A stretch of DNA of 64,000 nt, taken from Mangrovimonas aestuarii. Lineage in GTDB: Bacteria > Bacteroidota > Bacteroidia > Flavobacteriales > Flavobacteriaceae. Position 1 is the first letter of the stretch, and each line of letters starts with the position of its first letter. The notes below the pieces were generated by a model, which saw nothing but the letters and a program-made list of their open reading frames with translations, did not search any database and had not been told where the DNA came from. This document shows positions 3,188 to 47,645 of this stretch, piece by piece. The stretch covers positions 62,001 to 126,000 of the forward strand of contig NZ_JARACK010000003.1 of NCBI RefSeq assembly GCF_028767185.1. The letters run 5' to 3'. The position numbers and the translations under genes are program-made.

Positions 3188-5185
3188 ATGCAAAACCTAA
3201 ATCCCATAACGGCTAAGTTTTCTGTCTCTACATTTAATTTCTGGACCTGCTTGTCCTTGATTTTCTTTTCAACATATAACACATATTCACAAGAGAACTT
3301 TAAAGACATTGAATTTAAAAGCCTATCAAAACGAATCATCTGGGAGGGAAAAAAGAACCTTTTCTCAAATCTGGACTCAATATTTGAAAGACACGCTGAA
3401 GACACTGTTAAAATGAAATATCTTGCCGAGCATAGCAAGAAGAAAGGATTTGCAGAAGGGGAAGCTTACGCACTTGAACAATTAGGAAACCATTACAAAA
3501 ATAACGGCAACTACAAAAAGGCTATAGACTTTTTTTTACAAGCCAATATAAGATCCAAACATACAAACAACAAACAACTCCGCGCCAACATATTGATGAA
3601 CCTAGGGGTATGCTACCACAAATTGGACCTTATTCAAAACTCCATCGATTACTTAAAACAAGCTTTGGATATTGCAGAATCCGTTCAAAAACAACCTGAG
3701 CACCTAAAACATTTAATAGCAACCTGCCAAAATAACCTCGGAACACTTTATATAAAACTAAAACAATTTGATTTAGCCTTGGAATTGTTCAAAGAAGCTC
3801 TTGTAACTGCCCGTGAACTTAATGACAAAAATTTTCTTGCAACTTGTTACCATAACATAGGTATATATTTAGAAGAGAAAGGCCTTTACAACGAAGCTCT
3901 TAAAAACTACAAAACTTCTTTGAGCTTTAACAATGAAATAGATTGCGAGAATGGCAAATCCATATTATACAATAGCCTTGGAAGAATCCACATCCTAATG
4001 GAAGAGCCCGAAAAAGCTTTGGAGTACATTATTATAGCCCAAAGAATGTCAATTGAACTTAACAACGAACATTTAACAACAAAAACTTACATTAACCTAG
4101 GCCAAGCCTACACAAAAATCAACAAATACAGCTTAGCCAAATCTAACCTAATGCAAGGGTTGAAAATTGCTGAAAGATTAGGAAAAAAGGACCTCTTAAG
4201 CAAGTGTTACCTTAGATTATCAGAACTGTACGAACTTAACCACAATTCTCAAAAAGCACTTTCCTTTTACAAAAAACATATCGATCTTGAGAACACTATC
4301 ACAAATGAAAGAGACCAACAGTACCTTACCGACCTAATCGTAAAGCATGAGAGTCAGAAAAAAAACAATCAAATAAAAGCCTTGGCCAGTGAAAACGAAA
4401 TTGTAAAACTAAAGTTAGAACAAAATAAAAAAACCTTAATTCTTGGAATTTGCGGACTAATTCTTGCCGCCTGTGTTCTCCTTATTCTTTACCGACAAAG
4501 ACAACTACATAGTGACAAAAAAATATTGAGGCTTGAACAAGACATGTTGAGAAATCAAATGAATCCCCATTTCATATTTAACTCCCTTAATTCAATTAAA
4601 CTTTACATTATTAACAACGAAAGGGAAAATGCTGTTTACTACCTAAACAAGTTTTCAAAATTGATCAGGAAAATACTTTTATCATCAAAAGAGAAAGACA
4701 TATCACTAGAAGACGAACTGGACACCATGGCATTATACATGAACATTGAAAACATTCGCTTCTCCAATGAAATAAAATACCAAGTACATATTTCTCCTGA
4801 AGTAAATCCTTCATCCATACGAGTACCATCAATGATATTACAGCCATTTTTGGAAAATGCACTATGGCATGGCTTATCATCAAAAAAAGGAATCAAAAAA
4901 ATCAGTTTGAGAGTAGAAAAATTAAAACCTGAATTTGTCACTATAACCATAATAGATAACGGTGTAGGGCGAAAAGCCTCTGAAAGCATTCAAAAGCAAA
5001 AAACCTTAAACAGAAAATCAGTAGGAATTGCTATTACTCAAGAACGACTGACCAATTTCTCTAAACGCTACTCTAACATGTATCACTTAAAAATTGAAGA
5101 TCTTTACAACATTGATAATTCCCCTGCAGGAACAAAGGTAGTAATCAATATACCTATAAACGCATCGGCTTTAAGGACTGCATAA
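3188..5185 (+). CDS. TPR-containing sensor histidine kinase (LytS/YehU-type)
   Basis: The probable partner kinase of the LytTR regulator just upstream. The 665 residues begin with a hydrophobic export signal (about 10-35). Tetratricopeptide repeats fill about 90-370 and would lie in the periplasm. A membrane helix (about 418-440, around LILGICGLILAACVLLILY) and a short coiled coil lead to the cytoplasmic kinase. The His_kinase domain carries H461 in MNPHFIFNSLNS, and the ATPase domain has an N-box in LQPFLENALWHG and a G-box IDNGVGR. This architecture is common in Bacteroidota. The ligand sensed by the TPR part cannot be told from sequence. Confidence 0.93.
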   Translation: MQNLNPITAKFSVSTFNFWTCLSLIFFSTYNTYSQENFKDIEFKSLSKRIIWEGKKNLFSNLDSIFERHAEDTVKMKYLAEHSKKKGFAEGEAYALEQLGNHYKNNGNYKKAIDFFLQANIRSKHTNNKQLRANILMNLGVCYHKLDLIQNSIDYLKQALDIAESVQKQPEHLKHLIATCQNNLGTLYIKLKQFDLALELFKEALVTARELNDKNFLATCYHNIGIYLEEKGLYNEALKNYKTSLSFNNEIDCENGKSILYNSLGRIHILMEEPEKALEYIIIAQRMSIELNNEHLTTKTYINLGQAYTKINKYSLAKSNLMQGLKIAERLGKKDLLSKCYLRLSELYELNHNSQKALSFYKKHIDLENTITNERDQQYLTDLIVKHESQKKNNQIKALASENEIVKLKLEQNKKTLILGICGLILAACVLLILYRQRQLHSDKKILRLEQDMLRNQMNPHFIFNSLNSIKLYIINNERENAVYYLNKFSKLIRKILLSSKEKDISLEDELDTMALYMNIENIRFSNEIKYQVHISPEVNPSSIRVPSMILQPFLENALWHGLSSKKGIKKISLRVEKLKPEFVTITIIDNGVGRKASESIQKQKTLNRKSVGIAITQERLTNFSKRYSNMYHLKIEDLYNIDNSPAGTKVVINIPINASALRTA

Positions 5186-9453: not shown

Positions 9454-10041
9454 TTAAGCTAAAAAATCGCTGTGAAGAATCATAGGGATTACCAACCCCA
9501 CAACAACAGCAGATATAACCATAACCCAATCGCGTTTTGAAAACCTAAAAACAGTTTGCATTAAAAATCCTAAAAAGAGTACAACAAAAACGATGATTAC
9601 CTGTGCAAGTTCAATTCCTAATGCAAACTCGGCAAGTGTAAGAAATTTATTCTCGGATTTCCCTACCAATATTTTAAATTCCCTAGCAAAACCCAATCCA
9701 TGAACCAAACCAAAGAAAAGAGTTGAGAAAAATAGCACACCAACTTTCTCATTTTGAGAATTTTTCCCTGCAGTAAACACATTGAACAGCGCCACAACAA
9801 ATATGGTAACAGGGATTAAAAACTCCACCAACTGACCATTTACCCTTACGATGTCGTAAGCCGCCAAAATAAGGGAAACAGTATGCCCAATTGTAAACAA
9901 AGTCACTAAGAACAAAACACGCTTCCAGTTTCGAAATAAATAAGGTACCGTTAATGCAATTAAAAATAATACATGGTCGTAGGCATTGACATCTAACACA
10001 TGGTTAATACCATACTGTACATTAAACCAGAAGTTTTCCAT
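9454..10041 (-). CDS. HupE/UreJ-like membrane protein (short form)
   Basis: A 195-residue inner-membrane protein with about six helices. The motifs YDHVLFLIALTVPYLF, FTIGHTVSL, FFGLVHGLGFAREF and ELAQVIIVFVVL are the conserved core of the HupE/UreJ family, some members of which move nickel or cobalt. It has no N-terminal periplasmic domain, unlike the second HupE/UreJ protein at 43531-44529. It stands alone, downstream of threonine dehydrogenase on the same strand (36 bases). Metal transport is a family-level guess. Confidence 0.82.
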   Translation of the reverse strand: MENFWFNVQYGINHVLDVNAYDHVLFLIALTVPYLFRNWKRVLFLVTLFTIGHTVSLILAAYDIVRVNGQLVEFLIPVTIFVVALFNVFTAGKNSQNEKVGVLFFSTLFFGLVHGLGFAREFKILVGKSENKFLTLAEFALGIELAQVIIVFVVLFLGFLMQTVFRFSKRDWVMVISAVVVGLVIPMILHSDFLA

Positions 10042-12367: not shown

Positions 12368-14464
12368 ATGAAAACCGATTTTAAAAAGCACGTCGTTTTA
12401 GGCTCCATAGCCCTTTTAAGCTTGGCAGCATGTAAAAAGGACGTAAAAAAAGAAGAGATTGCAGAAGTAAAACCCGCTCCCGGTCTTGTTCTTGAAAACA
12501 TGGATACATTAGTAAATCCTAAAGACAACTTTTATAATTATGTAAATGGAAGTTGGATGAAAACAGCTACCATTCCTAGTGATAGATCACGCTGGGGAAG
12601 CTTTGATGAGCTGCGTCAAAAAACCGATGAAGATGCTCTTTCTATTCTTCAAGCAGCAATGTCTGAAGACAAGGACCTAAACCACATCAAGGTTATGGCC
12701 GGCTCTGATCAAGAAAAAGCCGTTTTCCTTTTCGAAACCATTATGGATACTTCTTCGAGAAACGAGCAAGGTATAAAACCTCTTTTACCTTATCTTGAAA
12801 AAATTAACAGCATAAACAATATAAAAGATCTTGAAGCCTTCTTAATTGAAATGGAACCAAAAGGAGGCGCTGGATTTTTCGGGTTTGGCGTAGGTGCCGA
12901 CCTTAAAAACAGTAACATTAACGCAGGATACATAGGAACAGGTTCTTTGGGACTTCCTGACAGGGACTATTATGTAAAGGATGATGAAGATTCTAAAAAA
13001 GTCCGTGAAAAGTATGTCAACCATGTTGCGAGAATGCTTCAGTTCTTAGGCGACTCTGAAGCTGATGCAATAAGTCAAGCGGAACAAATTTTAGCCTTCG
13101 AAACCAAAATGGCTGAGCCTAGAATGGACAAAGTAGAGCGTAGAGATGCTCGTAAACGATACAATCCTAAATCTATCGGAGAGCTAGAAAGCATGGTTCC
13201 TGCTATCAACTGGAAAGAGTACTTTAATGGTATTGGTGCCAAGGATATCGACACTGTAATTGTTTCCGACCTTAACTATATGAAAGCATTACAAGGTATT
13301 CTAGCTGAAAACAACCCATCTGACTGGAAAGCATATCTACGTTGGACAGCTTTAAACACTTCTGCAGGAATGCTAAGCGACGAACTTGAGCGTGCAAACT
13401 GGGAATTTTACAGCAAAGAATTACGCGGTACTAAAGAACAACGCCCGAGAGACGAAAGAGCGCTTCAAACCCTTAACTGGACCATTGGTGAAGCTTTAGG
13501 AAAACTTTATGTGGATGAAAAATTCCCTCCAGAAGCAAAAGCAAAAGCTGAAAGAATGATTCGCAATGTAATCTCAGCTTTCGAAAACCGTATAAGTCAA
13601 CTAGAATGGATGAGTCCTGAAACCAAGAAAAAGGCAATTGAAAAACTTCAAGCTACTCAAATAAAAATTGCATATCCGGACAAATGGAAGGATTATTCAG
13701 AGTTAGAAATAAAAAGTCCAGCTGAAGGCGGAACATATCTTCAAAACATGGTGAACGCTAGCGAGTGGAACTTTAAAGAGGATATGGCCAAACTTGGAAA
13801 CCCTGTAGACAAAACAGAGTGGGGAATGGCACCACAAGTAGTAAATGCTTACTTTAATCCTGTATTTAACGAAATTGTATTCCCTGCGGCAATTTTACAA
13901 CCTCCTTTCTACAATTACCAAGCAGATGACGCTGTAAATTACGGCGGTATTGGAGCTGTTATTGGGCATGAAATCTCTCATAGCTTTGATGATTCTGGCG
14001 CTCGTTTTGACAAAGATGGAAATCTTAATAATTGGTGGACAGATGAGGATTTAAAACAATTTGAGGAATTGGGCGCTAAATTGGCCTCTCAATTTGACGA
14101 TTTGGAAGCCTTACCAGAAGTTCACGTAAACGGGAAATTTACTCTTGGTGAAAATATCGGTGATCTTGGCGGTTTAAATGCTGCTTATGATGCTCTTCAA
14201 ATGGACTTTAAAGATAATGGAAGACCAGAAAACATCGACGGATTTACACCAGAACAGCGTTTCTTTATGAGTTGGGCTACAGTTTGGAGAACATTGAGCA
14301 CAGACGAAGCTCTTAAAAACCAAATAAAAACAGACCCACACTCTCCAGGAGTTTTTAGAGCGATGCAACCTTTAAGAAACATCGATGCGTTTTATAATGC
14401 ATTTGATATTACTGAAGAAGACGAAATGTATCTTGCACCAGAAGATCGCGTAAAAATCTGGTAG
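12368..14464 (+). CDS. pepO: M13 family zinc metallopeptidase (PepO/neprilysin-like) lipoprotein
   Basis: A 698-residue exported oligopeptidase. The signal LGSIALLSLAACKKD has a lipobox with C22, so it is probably anchored to a membrane. The zinc motif HEISH is at H534-H538, and the third ligand E595 lies in GENIGDLGG, giving the ExxxD pattern of the family. NAYFNPVFNEIVFPAAILQ is the conserved substrate-binding stretch just before. Full-length N-terminal M13 domain begins at about 45 with DNFYNYVNGSWM. It probably degrades peptides outside the cytoplasm. It stands alone, with terminators on both sides. Confidence 0.94.
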   Translation: MKTDFKKHVVLGSIALLSLAACKKDVKKEEIAEVKPAPGLVLENMDTLVNPKDNFYNYVNGSWMKTATIPSDRSRWGSFDELRQKTDEDALSILQAAMSEDKDLNHIKVMAGSDQEKAVFLFETIMDTSSRNEQGIKPLLPYLEKINSINNIKDLEAFLIEMEPKGGAGFFGFGVGADLKNSNINAGYIGTGSLGLPDRDYYVKDDEDSKKVREKYVNHVARMLQFLGDSEADAISQAEQILAFETKMAEPRMDKVERRDARKRYNPKSIGELESMVPAINWKEYFNGIGAKDIDTVIVSDLNYMKALQGILAENNPSDWKAYLRWTALNTSAGMLSDELERANWEFYSKELRGTKEQRPRDERALQTLNWTIGEALGKLYVDEKFPPEAKAKAERMIRNVISAFENRISQLEWMSPETKKKAIEKLQATQIKIAYPDKWKDYSELEIKSPAEGGTYLQNMVNASEWNFKEDMAKLGNPVDKTEWGMAPQVVNAYFNPVFNEIVFPAAILQPPFYNYQADDAVNYGGIGAVIGHEISHSFDDSGARFDKDGNLNNWWTDEDLKQFEELGAKLASQFDDLEALPEVHVNGKFTLGENIGDLGGLNAAYDALQMDFKDNGRPENIDGFTPEQRFFMSWATVWRTLSTDEALKNQIKTDPHSPGVFRAMQPLRNIDAFYNAFDITEEDEMYLAPEDRVKIW

Positions 14465-38581: not shown

Positions 38582-40483
38582 ATGAAAAATTTGTCATTGC
38601 TTTTTGGGGTTCTATTTCTATTCATCACTTTAAGTTGCAAAAAAAACACCAACTCTAGCAATGAGACGGTTGTAGATCAAGAGCAACCTGCAACAACTTC
38701 AGATGAAACCATTCCTGAGTCCAACCCCTTAAAAAATGTGTATTGGGGAGAAACCCACAACCACACAGGGAATTCGTTTGACGTTTATTTATTTGGCACG
38801 CCAAACTCAACACCAGATACAGCTTACCGCTTTGCAAAAGGAGAGGAAGTTACCAGCCCAACTACTGGGAAAACCATGCAAATAAGTAAACCTTTAGATT
38901 TTCTTGTAGTTGCAGACCATGCGGAATTGCTAGGCTCTATATCCTTAATGTATGAAAATACCGCAGGAATAAGCGACACAAAAACAGGAAAGGCCTTTTT
39001 AGGAATTGCCCCAAATAAATCGGAAGAAAACATGCAAAAAATCTACGATATCCTAAATTATGCAGCTTTCGACCAACCTAACGAGGCTAATCTAACGAGT
39101 AAAGATCTTGTTGGTGATTTTGGTGGCACAAAGGTTTCTGAAGCCTGGTCGCGATATATTGAAACTGCCGAAGCTCATAATGACCCCGGAACCTTTACCT
39201 CTCTCATAGGATGGGAATGGTCCTCAAACAATGGTGGTGCCAATTTACACCGCGTGGTATTTATGCCTCAAGGAGGTGACGTTGCAAATCAGTTCATTCC
39301 TTATAGCGCACTTGACAGTGACGACCCTGAAAATCTATGGGCTTGGCTAGACGAAACAAGTGCGCGTACTGGAGCAGAATTCGTTGCGATACCCCATAAC
39401 CCGAATATTAGTTTGGGACTCATGTTTCCCGAAACCCGTTTGAATGGTAAACCTGTGGATAAGGCTTATGCTGAAACCCGAATGAAGTGGGAGCGTTCTG
39501 TAGAGATTACCCAAATTAAAGGAGACTCTGAAACCCACCCAGCTCTATCGCCCAACGATGAGTTTGCCGATTTTGAAACCTATGATTTTGCTCTAACCCC
39601 AGATGGGACACGACCTGCTCCAACCAAAGCAGATTATGTACGCTCTGGTTTGATGACTGGATTAGAACTTGAAAAGAAAATTGGCAAAAACCCTTATAAA
39701 ATTGGATTTGTTGGAAGCTCCGATTCCCATACCGGAATGTCTGCCATTGAAGAAACCAACTTTGCAGGGAAAGGTCAACATGATTCCGAACCTAAAAAAC
39801 GTGCACACCCCACAGGCATTGGTTCCTCCAAAGGATGGGATATGGGTGCTGCCGGATGGGTGGGCGTTTGGGCCGAAAGTAATACCCGCCAGAGTATTGT
39901 AGATGCCTTTCAACGTAAAGAAGTCTATGCTACCACCGGGCCACGCATCACCTTACGTGTGTTTGGCGGCTATAATTTTACCGAAAGTGACCTGAATGCT
40001 GAAATGGTAAAAACAGGCTATGGCAAAGGCGTTCCTATGGGTGGCGATTTAAATAAAACTGCAAATGACACGGCCCCTGGTTTTTTGATATCCGCAGTAA
40101 AAGATCCTGATGGTGCCAATCTAGATAGAATTCAAGTGGTAAAGGGTTGGTTGAATGCAGATGGCACTTCCGATGAGAAAATATATGATGTTGCCTTATC
40201 TGATGGCAGAACAGATGGAAACGTAAAAGTAGGAAACACCGTAGACATTAAAACCGGTAAATATACCAATACCATTGGCGAGGCCGAATTAAAAGTGTAT
40301 TGGACAGATCCAGACTTTAACCCTAGTCAAAGCGCTTTTTATTATGTAAGAGTCTTGGAGATTCCAACACCCAGATATTCTTTGTATGACGCTATTGAAC
40401 TGGATATTGATGTCAAAGAAACTAATCATCCAGCCACTATTCAAGAAAGGATTTATAGTTCTCCCATTTGGTATACGCCGTAA
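38582..40483 (+). CDS. DUF3604 lipoprotein, copy 1
   Basis: A 633-residue exported lipoprotein (signal LFLFITLSC, lipid Cys C19). The family has a PHP-like metal-binding core: H59 and H61 in YWGETHNHTG, D112 and H113 in VVADHAE, then AIPHNPN, and DSH in VGSSDSHTGMSA, all plausible metal ligands. Conserved flanks HPALSPNDEFADFE and YATTGPRITLRVF are present. The fold suggests hydrolysis of a phosphoester or similar bond outside the cytoplasm; the substrate is not known. It forms its own transcription unit, ended by a terminator at 40525. It is paralogous to the next gene. Confidence 0.85.
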   Translation: MKNLSLLFGVLFLFITLSCKKNTNSSNETVVDQEQPATTSDETIPESNPLKNVYWGETHNHTGNSFDVYLFGTPNSTPDTAYRFAKGEEVTSPTTGKTMQISKPLDFLVVADHAELLGSISLMYENTAGISDTKTGKAFLGIAPNKSEENMQKIYDILNYAAFDQPNEANLTSKDLVGDFGGTKVSEAWSRYIETAEAHNDPGTFTSLIGWEWSSNNGGANLHRVVFMPQGGDVANQFIPYSALDSDDPENLWAWLDETSARTGAEFVAIPHNPNISLGLMFPETRLNGKPVDKAYAETRMKWERSVEITQIKGDSETHPALSPNDEFADFETYDFALTPDGTRPAPTKADYVRSGLMTGLELEKKIGKNPYKIGFVGSSDSHTGMSAIEETNFAGKGQHDSEPKKRAHPTGIGSSKGWDMGAAGWVGVWAESNTRQSIVDAFQRKEVYATTGPRITLRVFGGYNFTESDLNAEMVKTGYGKGVPMGGDLNKTANDTAPGFLISAVKDPDGANLDRIQVVKGWLNADGTSDEKIYDVALSDGRTDGNVKVGNTVDIKTGKYTNTIGEAELKVYWTDPDFNPSQSAFYYVRVLEIPTPRYSLYDAIELDIDVKETNHPATIQERIYSSPIWYTP

Positions 40484-40524
40484 TACACTACAAACTAAAA
40501 AAAGAAAGATTTTTTCATTTGATG

Positions 40525-40571
40525 ACAATTGTAAGAATAGTTTAAAGGCTGCTCTTACAATTGTTTTTTTA
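40525..40571 (+). terminator. Terminator between the two DUF3604 genes
   Basis: ACAATTGTAAGA (40525-40536) and TCTTACAATTGT (40553-40564) form a 12-bp perfect stem with a 16-base loop and a run of T. It makes the downstream operon separately regulated. Confidence 0.8.
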
Positions 40572-40734
40572 GACCCTTCACCACCTATAAACAAAACACT
40601 CATTAACAAACCTTTATATGTTTTTTTTTGAAATATTTTATGTACATTTAAAAGGCACCATTTCTATTGCACAAAACCAGTTAATCAACAAAATATAGTG
40701 ATCCCTCCTTAACCCTTATAAAAAAATTAAAACC

Positions 40735-42636
40735 ATGAAAAACGTATTTGTTTTAATTATCTTTTTTGCTCTACTCATTTTTAACAGCTGCAAACAAGAA
40801 GGAAGCTCCAACAATCAAAATGAAGGCATCGCTACCGATACCACCGCTACAACTACCAATGAGGTAAAGGAAAACCCCAACCGTGATGTATATTGGGGTG
40901 ATCAACATGTACATACGGCTTGGTCTGCCGATGCAGGAGCCGCAGGAACGCGGGTAGGCCCGGAAGAAGCCTTACGCTTTGCCAGAGGGGAGGAAATTAC
41001 CAGTAATACGAATAAAAAAGCCAAACTAAATAGGGCATTAGATTGGGTTGCCATTACCGACCATTCCGATGGTGCGGGAGTGATCAACGCTGTAATTGAA
41101 GGAGACCCGAAAGTAATGGGCGACCCTATAGTTGCTCAATATCATGAGGACATTAATGCAGGGGGCGAAAAAGCTGCTGCAGTCATGATGGATCTAATCA
41201 ATAGACAATCTAACAATAATCTTCCTGAGGTATTTACCGACCCTGAGTTTGCCAAAACTACTTGGAACAGAAACATCGACATTGTTGAAAAATACAACGA
41301 TCCCGGAAAATTTACCGCATTTATCTCTTACGAATGGACTTCTAATTACGGAGGTGGAAATAATTTACACAGAAACGTAATTTATAGAGATGGCCCCAGT
41401 AAAGGGAAACAGGCTAGCCCAATGACCACATTCGATTCTGAAAACCCTGAAGAACTTTGGAAATGGATGGCCAATTTTGAAGAAACAACAGGAGGGCAGG
41501 TTTTAGCCATCCCACATAACGGAAATTTATCCAATGGATTAATGTTCCAAGAAACCGCTTTCGACGGCAGCCCATTAACACCTGAGCTAGCGGCTTTACG
41601 AAACAAATATGAAGTGTTATATGAAACAACTCAAGGTAAGGGAACCAGTGAATCCCACCCACTTTTATCGCCTAATGATGAATTTGCGGACTTTGAATTA
41701 TGGGACAAAGGTAATTTGGTAATGGTTCCTAAAAAGCAAAGCATGATAAAAACCGAATATATCCGGGAGGCCTTAAAAAATGGGTTAAAACTTGAAGAAA
41801 AAGTAGGCGTTAATCCCTTTAAATATGGCTTAGTAGGTGGCACCGACACCCATACCGGTATGAGTGCCGCTGAAGAAGATAATTTTTGGGGAAAATACGC
41901 AAATGAAGAGCCCAGTCCGGAACGTACAGAAGAAAAAGCATTAGACTTTCCATCGGGATTTATTATGGCCTGGAAGTTAGGCGCATCAGGGTATACGGGC
42001 GTTTGGGCAACATCCAACACTCGCGAAGCATTATGGGATGCCATGAAGCGAAGAGAAACCTATGCTTCTACCGGTCCTCGCATGACTGTAAGATTCTTTG
42101 CAGGCTATGGCTATAGCGAAGACGATTTAAACGCCAATAATATGGCAGAAATAGGATATCAAAAAGGTGTACCCATGGGAGGTGACCTTAAAGCAAATCA
42201 AGAAGCGACTCCAAACTTTATGATTTATGCACGAAAAGATGCCGAAGGTGCCAATTTAGACAGAGTACAGGTTGTAAAAGGCTGGCTGGACGCCGATGGT
42301 AAAACCCATGAAAAAATATATAATGTGGTTTGGGGAGATCAGGATAAGCGCCAAATCTCTGCTGATGGCAAACTACCGGATGTAGGTAATACTGTAAATC
42401 TGGAAGATGCAACCTGGAGCAATACAATTGGTGCAGAAGAACTGAAAACAGTTTGGACAGACCCCGATTTTGACCCTTCCTTAAAGGCGTTTTATTATTT
42501 ACGCGTTCTGGAAATACCCACTCCCAGATGGACGGCCTATGATGCTGTGCGATTCAACCTTGAACTGGAAGAAGAAGTAACCACAACACTTCAGGAAAGA
42601 GCATACACTTCCCCTATATGGTATATTCCTCAATAA
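40735..42636 (+). CDS. DUF3604 lipoprotein, copy 2
   Basis: Also 633 residues, with lipobox LLIFNSC (C19) and the same core: H58 and H60 (YWGDQHVHTAW), D109 and H110 (AITDHSD), AIPHNGN, and DTH (VGGTDTHTGMSA). It differs from copy 1 around the first metal motif: AWSADAGAAGTRVG here, against GNSFDVYLFGTPNS there, so the substrate pocket probably differs. It heads an operon: the foldase starts 17 bases after its stop. The second set of genes suggests that this copy needs help in folding or metal loading. Confidence 0.85.
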   Translation: MKNVFVLIIFFALLIFNSCKQEGSSNNQNEGIATDTTATTTNEVKENPNRDVYWGDQHVHTAWSADAGAAGTRVGPEEALRFARGEEITSNTNKKAKLNRALDWVAITDHSDGAGVINAVIEGDPKVMGDPIVAQYHEDINAGGEKAAAVMMDLINRQSNNNLPEVFTDPEFAKTTWNRNIDIVEKYNDPGKFTAFISYEWTSNYGGGNNLHRNVIYRDGPSKGKQASPMTTFDSENPEELWKWMANFEETTGGQVLAIPHNGNLSNGLMFQETAFDGSPLTPELAALRNKYEVLYETTQGKGTSESHPLLSPNDEFADFELWDKGNLVMVPKKQSMIKTEYIREALKNGLKLEEKVGVNPFKYGLVGGTDTHTGMSAAEEDNFWGKYANEEPSPERTEEKALDFPSGFIMAWKLGASGYTGVWATSNTREALWDAMKRRETYASTGPRMTVRFFAGYGYSEDDLNANNMAEIGYQKGVPMGGDLKANQEATPNFMIYARKDAEGANLDRVQVVKGWLDADGKTHEKIYNVVWGDQDKRQISADGKLPDVGNTVNLEDATWSNTIGAEELKTVWTDPDFDPSLKAFYYLRVLEIPTPRWTAYDAVRFNLELEEEVTTTLQERAYTSPIWYIPQ

Positions 42637-42653
42637 AACAAAACACCTACAAT

Positions 42654-43544
42654 ATGAAAAAAATATTTAAAGAGCCCCTTTTCCACTTTATGCTTTTGGG
42701 CGCTACAATTTTTGCAGTGTATTTTCTTTTTTCTCCAAACGAGAATAATGAAAACCAGATTGTTATAGACGATAATAAGTTGGAGCACATAAACGCCCTC
42801 TGGGAACTTCAATGGAAACGTCAACCCACAGATGAAGAAATGCAACATTTGGTAGAGAACTACATTAAACAGGAAGTTCTTTACAGGGAAGCGCTTAGAA
42901 TGAATCTGGACCACAACGACGAAATAGTGAAGCGCCGTCTGTCTCAGAAAATGGAATTCATGACCAGCGATTTAACAAAAATGATGGCCCCTGTTACCGA
43001 CGAAAACCTGCAAAAATACTATACTGAAAACAAGGAAAAGTTCCGGGTAAATTGTCAGTATAGTTTTAACCATGAACTTTTCACTTCTTCCTTTCATGAA
43101 GCCCCGTTTAACAAGGCGCAAGAAGTGTTAAACAAAAATGAAAAAAGCGCTGTGAAAAACATAAAGGGAAAAGGCGACAACGTTTCGATTCCATTAAATT
43201 TTACAAACGCCTCTGAACATGACATAATCAGAAATTTAGGCACCGATTTTTATAATAGCTTAGAAGACCTCCCAACAAATGAATGGGCCGGCCCCATTAC
43301 CTCAGGTTTTGGTGAGCATTTGGTTTTTATTAGTGCTAAAACCCCAGCATACATTCCTGCTCTTAAGGAAATTCGTGACGTCGTTAAAAGAGACTATGAA
43401 TACGCCATAGAATCCAAGAACAAGGAACTTATCTATAAGGAACTGAAAAAGAATTATGACATCATTATCAAGTCTGAAAATTTTAAGGACTTTGATAAAG
43501 GGAAACTATTTGCCACCTTAAACCAAAACAATGAAAGCAAATAA
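42654..43544 (+). CDS. Membrane-anchored parvulin-like peptidyl-prolyl isomerase
   Basis: A 296-residue protein: a membrane helix (about 8-27), a helical SurA_N-like part (about 38-125, QHLVENYIKQEVLYREALRM), then a PPIC-like domain in which NEWAGPITSGFGEHLVFI is recognisable. The domain core is shortened relative to standard parvulins, so chaperone activity may outweigh isomerase activity. The ATG at 42654 is preferred because the upstream 12 residues from 42618 run over the previous gene's end. It overlaps the HupE/UreJ gene by 14 bases. Placement suggests that it folds the exported DUF3604 enzyme. Confidence 0.8.
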   Translation: MKKIFKEPLFHFMLLGATIFAVYFLFSPNENNENQIVIDDNKLEHINALWELQWKRQPTDEEMQHLVENYIKQEVLYREALRMNLDHNDEIVKRRLSQKMEFMTSDLTKMMAPVTDENLQKYYTENKEKFRVNCQYSFNHELFTSSFHEAPFNKAQEVLNKNEKSAVKNIKGKGDNVSIPLNFTNASEHDIIRNLGTDFYNSLEDLPTNEWAGPITSGFGEHLVFISAKTPAYIPALKEIRDVVKRDYEYAIESKNKELIYKELKKNYDIIIKSENFKDFDKGKLFATLNQNNESK

Positions 43545-44529
43545 ACCACACCATTACCTAATACTTTTGTTCCTTTTATTTTTTGGAGTTAACAGCATGG
43601 CTCACGAAGTACGGCCTGCCTCTTTACACTTGAACCAAATAGACGAAAATACATTTCAGGTCTATTGGAAAGTGCCCAGAAAAGGAGAAATGGTAATTAG
43701 GCTGCAGCCGGTTTTTCCGGAGGCGACTGATTTGATTCAAACCGAACTCCCCAAGATAATGGATGGTGCTATGGTTTATACATTCGAACTGAAAACAGAC
43801 AAACCTTTGTATGGCCAGAAGGTTTTTATAAATGGTCTTGAAAAAACTTTGGTGGATGTATTGGTTACCGGGACATACCTGAATGGAGAAAAAATTTCAC
43901 TTATGCTCAAACCCAGTTCCAATAGCGGCAATTTCCCCAAGGCAGAGGACAAACTATCCGTAATAAAAAACTACTTGGTATTGGGAGTAGAACATATTTG
44001 GTTTGGTATTGACCATCTGTTATTTGTATTGGCCCTAATCATTATTACCGTAGGATTTAAAAAAATTGTAAAAACCATTACAGCCTTTACTATTGCACAT
44101 AGCATCACTTTAAGTATGGCTGTTTTAGGAATTGCTAATTTACCCGCCCCCCCGGTGGAGGCAGTCATTGCGTTAAGTATTGTCTTTTTGGCTTCAGAGA
44201 TAATAAAAAACATTCAAGGAAAAGAAACACTTACCAGCAAAAAGCCTTGGTTGGTAGCCTTTACTTTTGGACTACTTCATGGTTTTGGCTTTGCTGGAGC
44301 ATTGGCTGAAGTAGGCTTACCTCCAACGGAAATTCCATTAGCATTGGCTTTTTTTAATGTAGGAGTAGAATTGGGACAAATTGTTTTTGTAGTGGTTGTT
44401 TTGGGCCTTCTTAAAATTCTATCACTTAAAAAAGATTGGTCTCCAACTTTAAAACAAATTCCCGCTTATGCCATAGGATCGATTGCCGCCTTTTGGACTT
44501 TAGAACGTATAATCGGATTTTGGATTTAA
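43531..44529 (+). CDS. HupE/UreJ family membrane protein with periplasmic N-terminal domain
   Basis: A 332-residue protein. After a signal-like helix (about 7-24) a sheet-rich periplasmic domain (about 25-150) starts AHEVRPASLHLNQI. The membrane part (about 148-332) has about seven helices with HIWFGIDHLLFVLALI, FTIAHSITLS, FTFGLLHGFGFAGAL and FNVGVELGQIVFVVVV, the family core. Several histidines within these motifs could bind Ni2+ or Co2+, but no transport is shown. It is the last gene of the DUF3604-foldase operon. Confidence 0.82.
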   Translation: MKANKPHHYLILLFLLFFGVNSMAHEVRPASLHLNQIDENTFQVYWKVPRKGEMVIRLQPVFPEATDLIQTELPKIMDGAMVYTFELKTDKPLYGQKVFINGLEKTLVDVLVTGTYLNGEKISLMLKPSSNSGNFPKAEDKLSVIKNYLVLGVEHIWFGIDHLLFVLALIIITVGFKKIVKTITAFTIAHSITLSMAVLGIANLPAPPVEAVIALSIVFLASEIIKNIQGKETLTSKKPWLVAFTFGLLHGFGFAGALAEVGLPPTEIPLALAFFNVGVELGQIVFVVVVLGLLKILSLKKDWSPTLKQIPAYAIGSIAAFWTLERIIGFWI

Positions 44530-46505: not shown

Positions 46506-47645
46506 ATGATTAACAAACGCCTTTTGATAAAAAACCTTTTGGCCCATAATGACGAGAACAGCTTTTACGACAAAAAGCTCCGTATTGATATTGGTGAAAA
46601 GGAAGGAAAGGCTAAATTTCTCAAACATATCTGTGCGCTCTCCAACAGCAACCCCAACAACAATTCATATATCGTTATTGGGGTTCAGGATGACGACAAC
46701 AAAATAATTGGTGTTGATTTTTTTGACGATAGTAAAATCCAAAACCTAATTAATGCCTATCTAACCAACCCCCCTATTGTTCAATACGAAAACATACCAT
46801 TCCCCCATCTCCCCGATGACAAAGTTGTAGGGTTGGTAACCATAAGACCTAAAGGAAACAATGAGGTTACTTCCCTGCGTAAAAACATATGGAAGTATTA
46901 TGGAGGTTCCGTTTTTTTTAGAGATGGTAGCATGAGCATGCCTAAAGTTTTTGACATTGAGATAAAGGACACAAATTCTCCTATTGTAAAATCTATTGAA
47001 GATCACGCACAAAACAACATTGAACATACTCTGGATGGTGTTTTCCTATTCATGAACAAACGCCAAGATTACAACCCTCAATATAAGGTTTTCAAAGAGT
47101 ACTTCGTAGTTTGTTGGGCCGGCCAGAAAAAAGCAGTCAAGGATAAAGTTTATTTTTCACGTGTAGACATTGAATTGGTAAACGAGCAGGTTAGACTTTT
47201 TTTCTCAAATCAAGACGAAGTTACCATTACCTATGACAACGATTATTTCAAAATTGTAGAATATGTTCATCTTGGGCTCCAAAACTCTTACAAATATTAC
47301 GAACTTGAAGAAACACTAATAAAATTTAACAACAACGCTTCCTACTCAATAGAAACTCAGCTACTATTTCAACCCCCGCAATACGACAAAAAAGTTCTTC
47401 ATCACATATACAATAGCAACAATGCCTTACTCTCAAAATTAAAAAAAGGAATTACACTTACTTCAAATGAGGAAAAAGACCTTAAAAACCTACCCGCCAC
47501 ATATTTAATATGCTACTTAAACCTGTTTCATGAAGCTATTGACAAGCTTACTGAAGCCAAACCCTACATTAGAGCCCATAGTAAAGAAGTCTACATTCTT
47601 TATAAAGATGTGATGCGAATTCTACGTAAAATGAAATACAACTAA
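46506..47645 (+). CDS. AlbA_2 (Schlafen-like) domain protein
   Basis: A 379-residue cytoplasmic protein. The N-terminal AlbA_2/Schlafen-type domain (about 15-155) opens FYDKKLRIDIGEKEGKAKFLKHICALSNS and has SYIVIGVQDDDNKIIGVD. This family is often annotated as ATP-binding; some members are transcription regulators or nucleases. The C-terminal part (about 165-379) has no recognised domain. It is the last gene of the AKR-SDR-AlbA_2 operon, with 2 bases between genes. Confidence 0.82.
   Translation: MINKRLLIKNLLAHNDENSFYDKKLRIDIGEKEGKAKFLKHICALSNSNPNNNSYIVIGVQDDDNKIIGVDFFDDSKIQNLINAYLTNPPIVQYENIPFPHLPDDKVVGLVTIRPKGNNEVTSLRKNIWKYYGGSVFFRDGSMSMPKVFDIEIKDTNSPIVKSIEDHAQNNIEHTLDGVFLFMNKRQDYNPQYKVFKEYFVVCWAGQKKAVKDKVYFSRVDIELVNEQVRLFFSNQDEVTITYDNDYFKIVEYVHLGLQNSYKYYELEETLIKFNNNASYSIETQLLFQPPQYDKKVLHHIYNSNNALLSKLKKGITLTSNEEKDLKNLPATYLICYLNLFHEAIDKLTEAKPYIRAHSKEVYILYKDVMRILRKMKYN

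Follow-up and report, generated by a model that had tools for sequence, protein, structure and literature searches.

In this study, we examined a window of 64,000 nucleotides of Mangrovimonas aestuarii DNA (Flavobacteriaceae, Bacteroidota; NCBI RefSeq assembly GCF_028767185.1, contig NZ_JARACK010000003.1, positions 62,001 to 126,000 of the forward strand), and found that positions 38,582 to 44,529 of it encode two DUF3604 proteins with predicted export signals, a parvulin-type (PPIC) protein and a long HupE/UreJ_2 protein. The linkage of these three families is real and broad. We conclude, from a predicted structure and from alignments, that DUF3604 proteins are likely to be exported PHP-fold metallohydrolases, and we give a probability of roughly 0.57 to the reading that they are such enzymes and that the PPIC-HupE pair is their dedicated post-export maturation machinery. 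An initial annotation of this stretch had proposed a complete extracytoplasmic enzyme system with a foldase for maturation and a membrane protein for metal supply; taken as a whole, that interpretation is partly supported. The locus contains the following features (window coordinates).

38582..40483, + strand: DUF3604 protein a, 633 aa, predicted to be exported with a lipoprotein-like signal; PF12228 E 7e-235.
40525..40570, + strand: terminator-like element between DUF3604 a and b, with a 12-bp perfect stem, a 16-nt loop and six T.
40735..42636, + strand: DUF3604 protein b, 633 aa; PF12228 E 1e-237; AF2 mean pLDDT 91.3; hydrophobic signal at residues 1-19, PHP-fold domain at about 46-448 and Ig-like sandwich at about 449-633, from hydropathy and fold matches.
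42654..43544, + strand: PPIC (parvulin-type) protein, 296 aa from the conserved start, SurA/PrsA-like and membrane-anchored on the basis of PF13145, homologue alignment and an AF2 model (pLDDT 90.3); one N-terminal transmembrane helix after an EPLxHF-like motif.
43531..44529, + strand: long HupE/UreJ_2 protein, 332 aa, with a PF13795 match at residues 148-297; signal peptide, extracytoplasmic domain at about 25-145 and multi-helix membrane domain, from alignment and hydropathy.
43603..43965, + strand: N-terminal extracytoplasmic domain of the HupE protein, without a Pfam match and covered by the matches of the co-inherited clade.

Both DUF3604 proteins, tandem paralogues that are 44% identical, match PF12228 across nearly the full model (781 bits for a and 791 for b, against a curated cut-off of 20.4) and begin with a hydrophobic segment that ends in Cys, so that the two exported DUF3604 proteins named in the initial annotation are indeed present; by eye, the secretion signals of both are predicted to be lipoprotein-like. 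The open reading frame (ORF) at 42618-43544 matches PF13145 Rotamase_2 (E 3e-15), and the ORF at 43531-44529 matches PF13795 HupE_UreJ_2 (E 9e-49; 165.6 bits against a curated cut-off of 24.5). The PPIC start was placed at the ATG at 42654, which lines up with the start of its relatives and leaves a gap of 17 bases from the DUF3604b stop (42636), and the HupE gene, with its ATG at 43531, shares 14 bases with the end of PPIC (stop at 43544); gene coordinates therefore bear out the tightly packed unit that had been described. The two DUF3604 genes are separated by an inverted repeat of 12 bp and a run of T, so DUF3604a is probably a separate transcription unit, the unit proper being DUF3604b-PPIC-HupE. 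A consensus scan, which has a loop limit of 8, did not list this element, and promoter-like sites (26 against 19.2 expected, standard deviation 3.9) were not used as evidence. The genome of the window also contains a third DUF3604 gene without partners alongside (L086 8842-10716) and one other HupE_UreJ_2 gene, at window 9454-10041, whose short product of 195 aa is without the N-terminal domain and is of a kind present in 39 other sampled Bacteroidota genomes.

The neighbourhood was compared across the best 80 of 119 loci (L numbers) from a scan of genome contigs, many of them short, with DUF3604b. The PPIC type was found in 42 of the 80 DUF3604 loci and the HupE type in 37. Where all three genes are intact, DUF3604 lies immediately 5' of the pair, on the same strand and within 110 bases, in 26 of 34 loci, and in the remaining 8 it is farther upstream, downstream or convergent. 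These 34 were drawn from the 42 PPIC loci after L006, L068, L071, L078 and L083, for which HupE was not in hand, L063 and L085, which have a truncated DUF3604, and L075 had been dropped. An apparent PPIC-HupE fusion in L075 (6956-8635) was rejected, and L075 was left out of both the alignments and the geometry count, because its translation crosses a run of N, that is, a scaffold gap rather than a natural fusion. Distances of PPIC and HupE correlate with r 0.84, and those of each with DUF3604 with r 0.49 and 0.44, respectively (0 of 999 permutations in each case). When 1126 flanking ORFs were clustered, the widely common ones were DUF3604 (78 loci) and a single PPIC/HupE cluster (36 loci), in which the two families probably fell together because the L075 ORF merged them. 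Eight more clusters, each shared by 6 to 9 loci, were obtained; they include a sulfatase and a PQQ dehydrogenase by Pfam and, by eye, an SDR protein, an AraC-type regulator, a molybdopterin-type oxidoreductase and a transporter, and two resemble antisense ORFs. These clusters are insufficient to point to a substrate of DUF3604.

Individual loci contain additional genes. In L031, DUF3604 is separated from PPIC by a carbonic anhydrase gene (3791-4627, PF00194), whose product has a lipoprotein-like start and is possibly another metalloenzyme client of the pair. In L018, a classical HupE (PF04955) and, by eye, a HupE-like frame lie inside the unit between the same two genes (12393-12986). A distant PPIC-HupE_UreJ_2 pair without DUF3604 is flanked in L170 (6426-8752) by FecI/FecR/TonB-receptor and PepSY/TonB-receptor genes, and in L169 (7118-11348) the pair is intact and DUF3604 next to it is a remnant, with a metallo-beta-lactamase-fold protein that has a signal-like start about 1 kb off. 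On a Sinorhizobium plasmid, two genes with adenylate/guanylate cyclase domains lie directly upstream of DUF3604 (L162 2312-9752).

Since the 80 loci had been found through DUF3604, whole-genome searches were added. Among 148 Bacteroidota genomes, DUF3604, the PPIC clade and the long HupE are found in the same 3 genomes, contiguous each time, and without the genome of the window itself 2 of 147 have all three (Fisher 9e-5); HupE matches exist in 39 other genomes but miss the N-terminal domain. Among 299 Pseudomonadota genomes (G numbers), DUF3604 (E <1e-30), the PPIC clade and the long HupE clade are each present in 23. PPIC and HupE occur in exactly the same genomes, 22 of which also hold DUF3604 (Fisher 4e-31, or 6e-30 without the centre genome; 4e-29 when every genome above the PF12228 cut-off, 25 in number, is taken as positive; relatedness is not corrected for in these values). 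For these calls, G187, G283 and G358, with weak or partial DUF3604 matches, were taken as absent, and G277 (divergent) and G307 (remnant) as present; PPIC matches weaker than 1e-30 (G246, G357) were taken as absent, and the PPIC of G148 consists of two joined matches. In most cases, the profile scans of Pseudomonadota with the PPIC and HupE alignments evaluated no more than 7 or 8 candidates in a genome, so misses are possible. All 26 PPIC copies adjoin HupE, with at most 116 bases between model matches, and 22 of the 26 are within 5 kb of a DUF3604 match, one of which is a remnant; the pair is distant from the DUF3604 genes in G148, G371 and G403. These counts put the neighbourhood well above chance, and the proposed test of whether the three families are neighbours elsewhere found them so on plasmids of rhizobia as well as in Bacteroidota, in Pseudomonadota and in one Thermodesulfobacteriota.

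The copy numbers differ between the families. In the genomes to which DUF3604-bearing loci belong, with full-length matches counted by hand from tables, the ratio of full-length DUF3604 to long HupE is about 11:1 in G155 (HTCC2080), 7:1 in G151, 6:1 in G149 and 4:1 in G148; G153 has about 10 DUF3604 and two long HupE, G150 and G154 are 1:1, and G156 is 2:2. The roughly 11 full-length paralogues in G155 (3.6 Mb, the genome of L064) represent a large unexplained expansion. A shared maturation pair would predict such uneven numbers and a strict one-to-one complex would not, and a shared helper is also the pattern suggested by a pair that may sit far from the enzyme genes and by about 11 DUF3604 genes per long HupE.

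The assignment of DUF3604 to the PHP fold rests on structure prediction. A model of DUF3604b built from 68 homologues had an AF2 mean pLDDT of 91.3, and in VIA comparisons it matched the PHP-fold structures 3e38 (Z 15.7, root-mean-square deviation (rmsd) 3.6, 226 aligned) and 2anu (Z 14.9, rmsd 3.0, 207 aligned), as well as endonuclease Q (Z 12.5), PsfC (12.0) and RNase AM (9.1); non-PHP structures aligned at Z 6.6 or less. The Ig-like sandwich at 449-633 has weaker and less specific structural matches. Other searches gave no such relationship: the top 50 Foldseek hits of DUF3604b included no PHP protein (best E 0.003, Ig-like and RhoGDI domains), PDB sequence searches with DUF3604b and its profile gave no credible relative, and the Pfam PHP model was unmatched by the DUF3604 proteins of the window, for which PF12228 alone was returned at E up to 0.1. 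The CehA/McbA metallohydrolase model NF038032 (cut-off 80) gave 19.9 bits for protein b and no match for protein a. In an alignment of 68 of 123 ORFs (121 ORFs from the loci, some partial, and the two window genes), hand-picked for length and spread, H58, H60, D66, H110, E200, H261, E297, D371 and H373 are invariant in 68/68 and D109 is retained in 66/68; N210, H212, R213, Q300 and K302 are likewise invariant. The first ten make up a complete His/Asp/Glu set, in line with the complete His/Asp motifs that had been read from the two window proteins, and they fit the PHP ligand pattern (HxH, D, DH, E, H, E, DxH). They would correspond to the metal ligands of solved PHP structures, which together with the predicted fold agrees with the earlier view of a PHP-like enzyme. 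DUF3604 most likely acts on phosphoesters or similar esters.

Export of DUF3604 was assessed on 82 N-termini, namely those of DUF3604 ORFs in which a match to the motif expression is preceded by 18 or more residues; the remaining ORFs were truncated or unmatched. A hydropathy and motif test detected a hydrophobic signal-like segment of the Sec or lipoprotein type in 81 of the 82, and these proteins would thus arrive in the periplasm in an unfolded state and receive their metal in that compartment. Tat signals, which would imply metal loading inside the cytoplasm, were sought for that reason; 7 of the 82 were flagged for RR, and by eye L014 alone is plausible. In the open-licence PMC literature, as far as its texts were available, the sole mention of DUF3604 is a table of Chlamydia trachomatis transposon mutants, in which a protein of 622 aa is annotated as DUF3604 (PMC11925237), and PF12228 is unmentioned.

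The PPIC partner was aligned in 40 sequences (the 42 PPIC loci minus the truncated L006, L012, a near copy of L011, and L075, plus the window). These proteins have an N-terminal membrane helix, a helical module and one parvulin domain, and the EPLxHF-like motif before the helix retains its P and an E or D in 40/40. The model of the window protein matched SurA-like 3rfw in Foldseek at E 2e-7, with further PrsA and SurA chains below 1e-4, and its parvulin domain fits 8sot (Z 12.0) and a PrsA fragment, 6xd8 (Z 10.8), well. Parvulin isomerases such as Pin1 and Par10 have two catalytic His. The second, H234, is invariant in 40/40 and the window protein retains both, but the first is absent in 27 of the 40, for which reason the family seems more likely to act as chaperones than as isomerases. 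The term foldase in the initial annotation is supported as far as the predicted SurA/PrsA-like fold is concerned, but most members do not have the full catalytic pair of a parvulin.

The HupE partner was aligned in 35 sequences (the 37 HupE loci minus L012, the truncated L031 and L075, plus the window). H155, D161, H162, H190, H250 and E280 are invariant in 35/35, and the N-terminal domain is unmatched in other HupE proteins of the sampled genomes. PDB sequence searches with the HupE protein and its profile gave no credible relative, and the profile had zero matches to PDB chains up to E 10. A metal-binding N-terminal His brace at the predicted mature start (A|HE), with the cleavage site placed from the AxA pattern alone, was considered and rejected as a defining feature; the position is His in 18/35, as in the window protein, and Asp in 17/35. 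A role in metal supply, as suggested before, would be consistent with the invariant His, Asp and Glu residues and with the HupE/UreJ-2 literature.

On this basis, we propose the following mechanism. DUF3604 would pass the inner membrane unfolded via Sec, as the signals suggest, and the membrane-anchored SurA/PrsA-like protein may hold and fold the emerging chain. The HupE/UreJ_2 permease with its extracytoplasmic domain may handle the divalent metal for the PHP site; in the simplest scenario, it would deliver metal to the periplasmic face. Judging from the copy numbers, one pair could serve several DUF3604 paralogues per genome. Maturation fits because a membrane chaperone-like protein and a permease are co-inherited with each other, and nearly always with DUF3604. 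In a bolder version, to which we give clearly less than even odds, the pair would work as a single machine in the membrane, with folding and metal insertion coupled, for Sec-exported PHP enzymes of Gram negative bacteria. If true, a metal-loading foldase would have allowed DUF3604 to expand behind one shared helper until a genome held about a dozen paralogues, much as sulfatases expanded behind one activating enzyme.

Several observations weigh against dedicated maturation. The full-length PPIC model superposes poorly on SurA and PrsA (TM-scores of 0.2-0.4 by query length), and position 152, that of the first parvulin His, is His in 13/40, Gln in 25/40 and another residue in 2/40. G450 holds the pair without DUF3604 (as does G357, for a more distant pair), and in G307 an intact pair lies beside a DUF3604 remnant only. 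Conversely, the pair is absent from G187 and G358, which have weak or partial DUF3604 matches, and from G277, which has a divergent DUF3604 (G277:C21:21969-23783). The latter was considered as a broken gene, but its three partial matches share one open 691-aa frame with zero stops, and it is a true exception. L068, L078 and L083 have DUF3604 and PPIC without an adjacent HupE; for L068 and L078, a long HupE is present at another place in the genome, whereas that of L083 (G455) contains five DUF3604 genes but zero long HupE at 1e-60. The weak point of the mechanism is the direction of transport, as HupE proteins are regarded as importers. Anglerases, which are HupE/UreJ-2 proteins with an N-terminal metal-binding domain, are proposed in the available part of their description to fish for and import metal (PMC12537917), and an exported PHP enzyme is active in E. 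coli without such partners supplied, according to the available part of its report (PMC5460133).

Import is at the heart of an alternative in which DUF3604 acts in the periplasm on an ester or chelator that carries metal and hydrolyses it, HupE imports the freed metal, and PPIC folds either the HupE domain or the enzyme. In addition to the anglerase proposal, the metal-uptake style neighbourhood of the L170 pair, which is without DUF3604, and the tie between PPIC and HupE, which is tighter than that of either with DUF3604, would suit such scavenging. However, about 11 DUF3604 copies per long HupE would be odd for this route, none of the clusters common to at least 6 loci resembles a receptor by eye, and the fold relatives of DUF3604 are phosphoesterases and nucleases, so we regard it as unlikely. 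Another idea is that PPIC folds solely the long HupE domain, with DUF3604 and HupE linked through substrate or metal physiology. The identical genome sets (23 and 23 of 299) and the tighter distance correlation agree with it, but PPIC stays beside DUF3604 where HupE is not adjacent, as in L068, L078 and L083 (the first two with a long HupE elsewhere in the genome), and we give it very little credence.

That the pair is a general maturation unit for periplasmic metalloproteins, with DUF3604 merely its commonest client, is suggested by the carbonic anhydrase gene within the unit of L031, by the metallo-beta-lactamase-fold protein with a signal-like start near the L169 pair, where DUF3604 is a remnant, and by the G450 pair. 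Such extra neighbours are single cases, and at the thresholds used the pair occurs without any DUF3604 match in just G450 among 299 Pseudomonadota and in none of 148 Bacteroidota, which makes this distinctly improbable. We give hardly more credence than to a PPIC that serves the HupE domain alone, and clearly less than to a general unit, to the idea that the three genes spread together on a mobile block and that the cause of this has nothing to do with a shared mechanism. The sparse distribution and the presence of DUF3604 on plasmids would accord with a block of this kind, but the co-occurrence persists while order and orientation vary (upstream, downstream, convergent or distant), and the profile match holds in two phyla. 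Thus, dedicated maturation of DUF3604 remains the reading that we favour.

Transfer itself is suggested by the phylogeny. In a tree of the 35 HupE sequences, rooted at midpoint only, 8 Bacteroidota sequences and the window form one fully supported group, within the tree Algoriphagus (Cyclobacteriaceae) clusters with Winogradskyella (Flavobacteriaceae), and this grouping, along with the sparse distribution, suggests that the set spread by horizontal transfer. DUF3604 was found on 80 of 72,556 plasmid records, 38 of which are predicted to be conjugative or mobilizable; a further check of plasmid records found DUF3604 on 77 and PPIC on 75, with nearly alike genus tallies among the matches listed. 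A conjugative plasmid of Sinorhizobium medicae WSM1115 is annotated in the order DUF3604-DUF3604-peptidylprolyl isomerase-HupE/UreJ, and a plasmid of Rhizobium leguminosarum has this order with a single DUF3604. Downstream of the set in the window itself, at 46506-47645, lies a gene whose product combines a Schlafen/AlbA_2 domain with DUF5929.

It is an open question how metalloenzymes exported in the unfolded state acquire the right metal, and TerC, worked out in Bacillus, is one proposed answer. A compact set of three co-inherited genes, which encode a chaperone-like protein and a metal permease along with the enzyme that is likely to be their client, offers a directly testable Gram negative case. 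Furthermore, the uncharacterised DUF3604 gains a predicted structural class and a possible reason why it might lack activity without helpers, and the conjugative plasmids of Sinorhizobium that carry DUF3604 provide tractable hosts.

The families are individually known to databases, and a description of the DUF3604-PPIC-HupE set together was not found in the searches made of the open-licence PMC literature, in which a paper that mentions HupE and UreJ along with a peptidyl-prolyl protein proved unrelated. Each component has counterparts in known systems, which are compared here from the available parts of the cited papers. Like SurA, PrsA and PpiD, the PPIC protein has an N-terminal helical module and a parvulin domain and is extracytoplasmic, and it is membrane-anchored like PrsA and PpiD; unlike them, it is the gene partner of one enzyme family, has the EPLxHF-like motif and has mostly replaced the first parvulin His. 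The match of its model to the PpiD-YfgM structure is weak (Foldseek E 0.44). The lipase-specific membrane foldases (LipH) are likewise membrane-anchored and dedicated to one exported enzyme (PMC13381987), whereas a parvulin fold and a metal transporter family are found in the present set.

As for the enzyme, Sb-PDE of Sphingobium sp. TCM1 is also an exported, probably Sec-dependent hydrolase of the PHP superfamily, a phosphodiesterase with 2.1 Zn bound (PMC5460133), but it has 441 aa, belongs to PF02811, is not labelled DUF3604, and needs no added partners to be active in E. coli. The anglerases Ang-1 and Ang-2 resemble the long HupE in having a signal peptide, an extracytoplasmic domain and a C-terminal PF13795 domain, and the spacing of 7 and 28 in their modelled membrane site (His194/His201/His229) is the same as that of H155/H162/H190 (PMC12537917). 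In contrast, Ang domains are reported to have His1 in 100%, as against 18/35 His and 17/35 Asp here, and the extracytoplasmic domain is shorter here. A crystal structure of Ang-1 exists (9GCE). The neighbours named in the available part of that paper are DUF4198, indigoidine-like, PfkB, metallophosphatase and DUF916 proteins, and never DUF3604 or an isomerase, although DUF3604 could be among them because proteins of unknown function are the commonest there. A precedent for the proposed role of the pair is TerC (MeeF/MeeY) of Bacillus subtilis, a membrane metal transporter proposed to load exported enzymes, such as Mn-dependent exoenzymes, during Sec translocation, which co-purifies with SecY, SecDF and the parvulin-type foldase PrsA; in that work, LTA synthesis was restored by Mn (PMC10550928). 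TerC, however, serves several enzymes, whereas the genes here link HupE/UreJ_2 to a single enzyme family and to a chaperone-like protein of its own.

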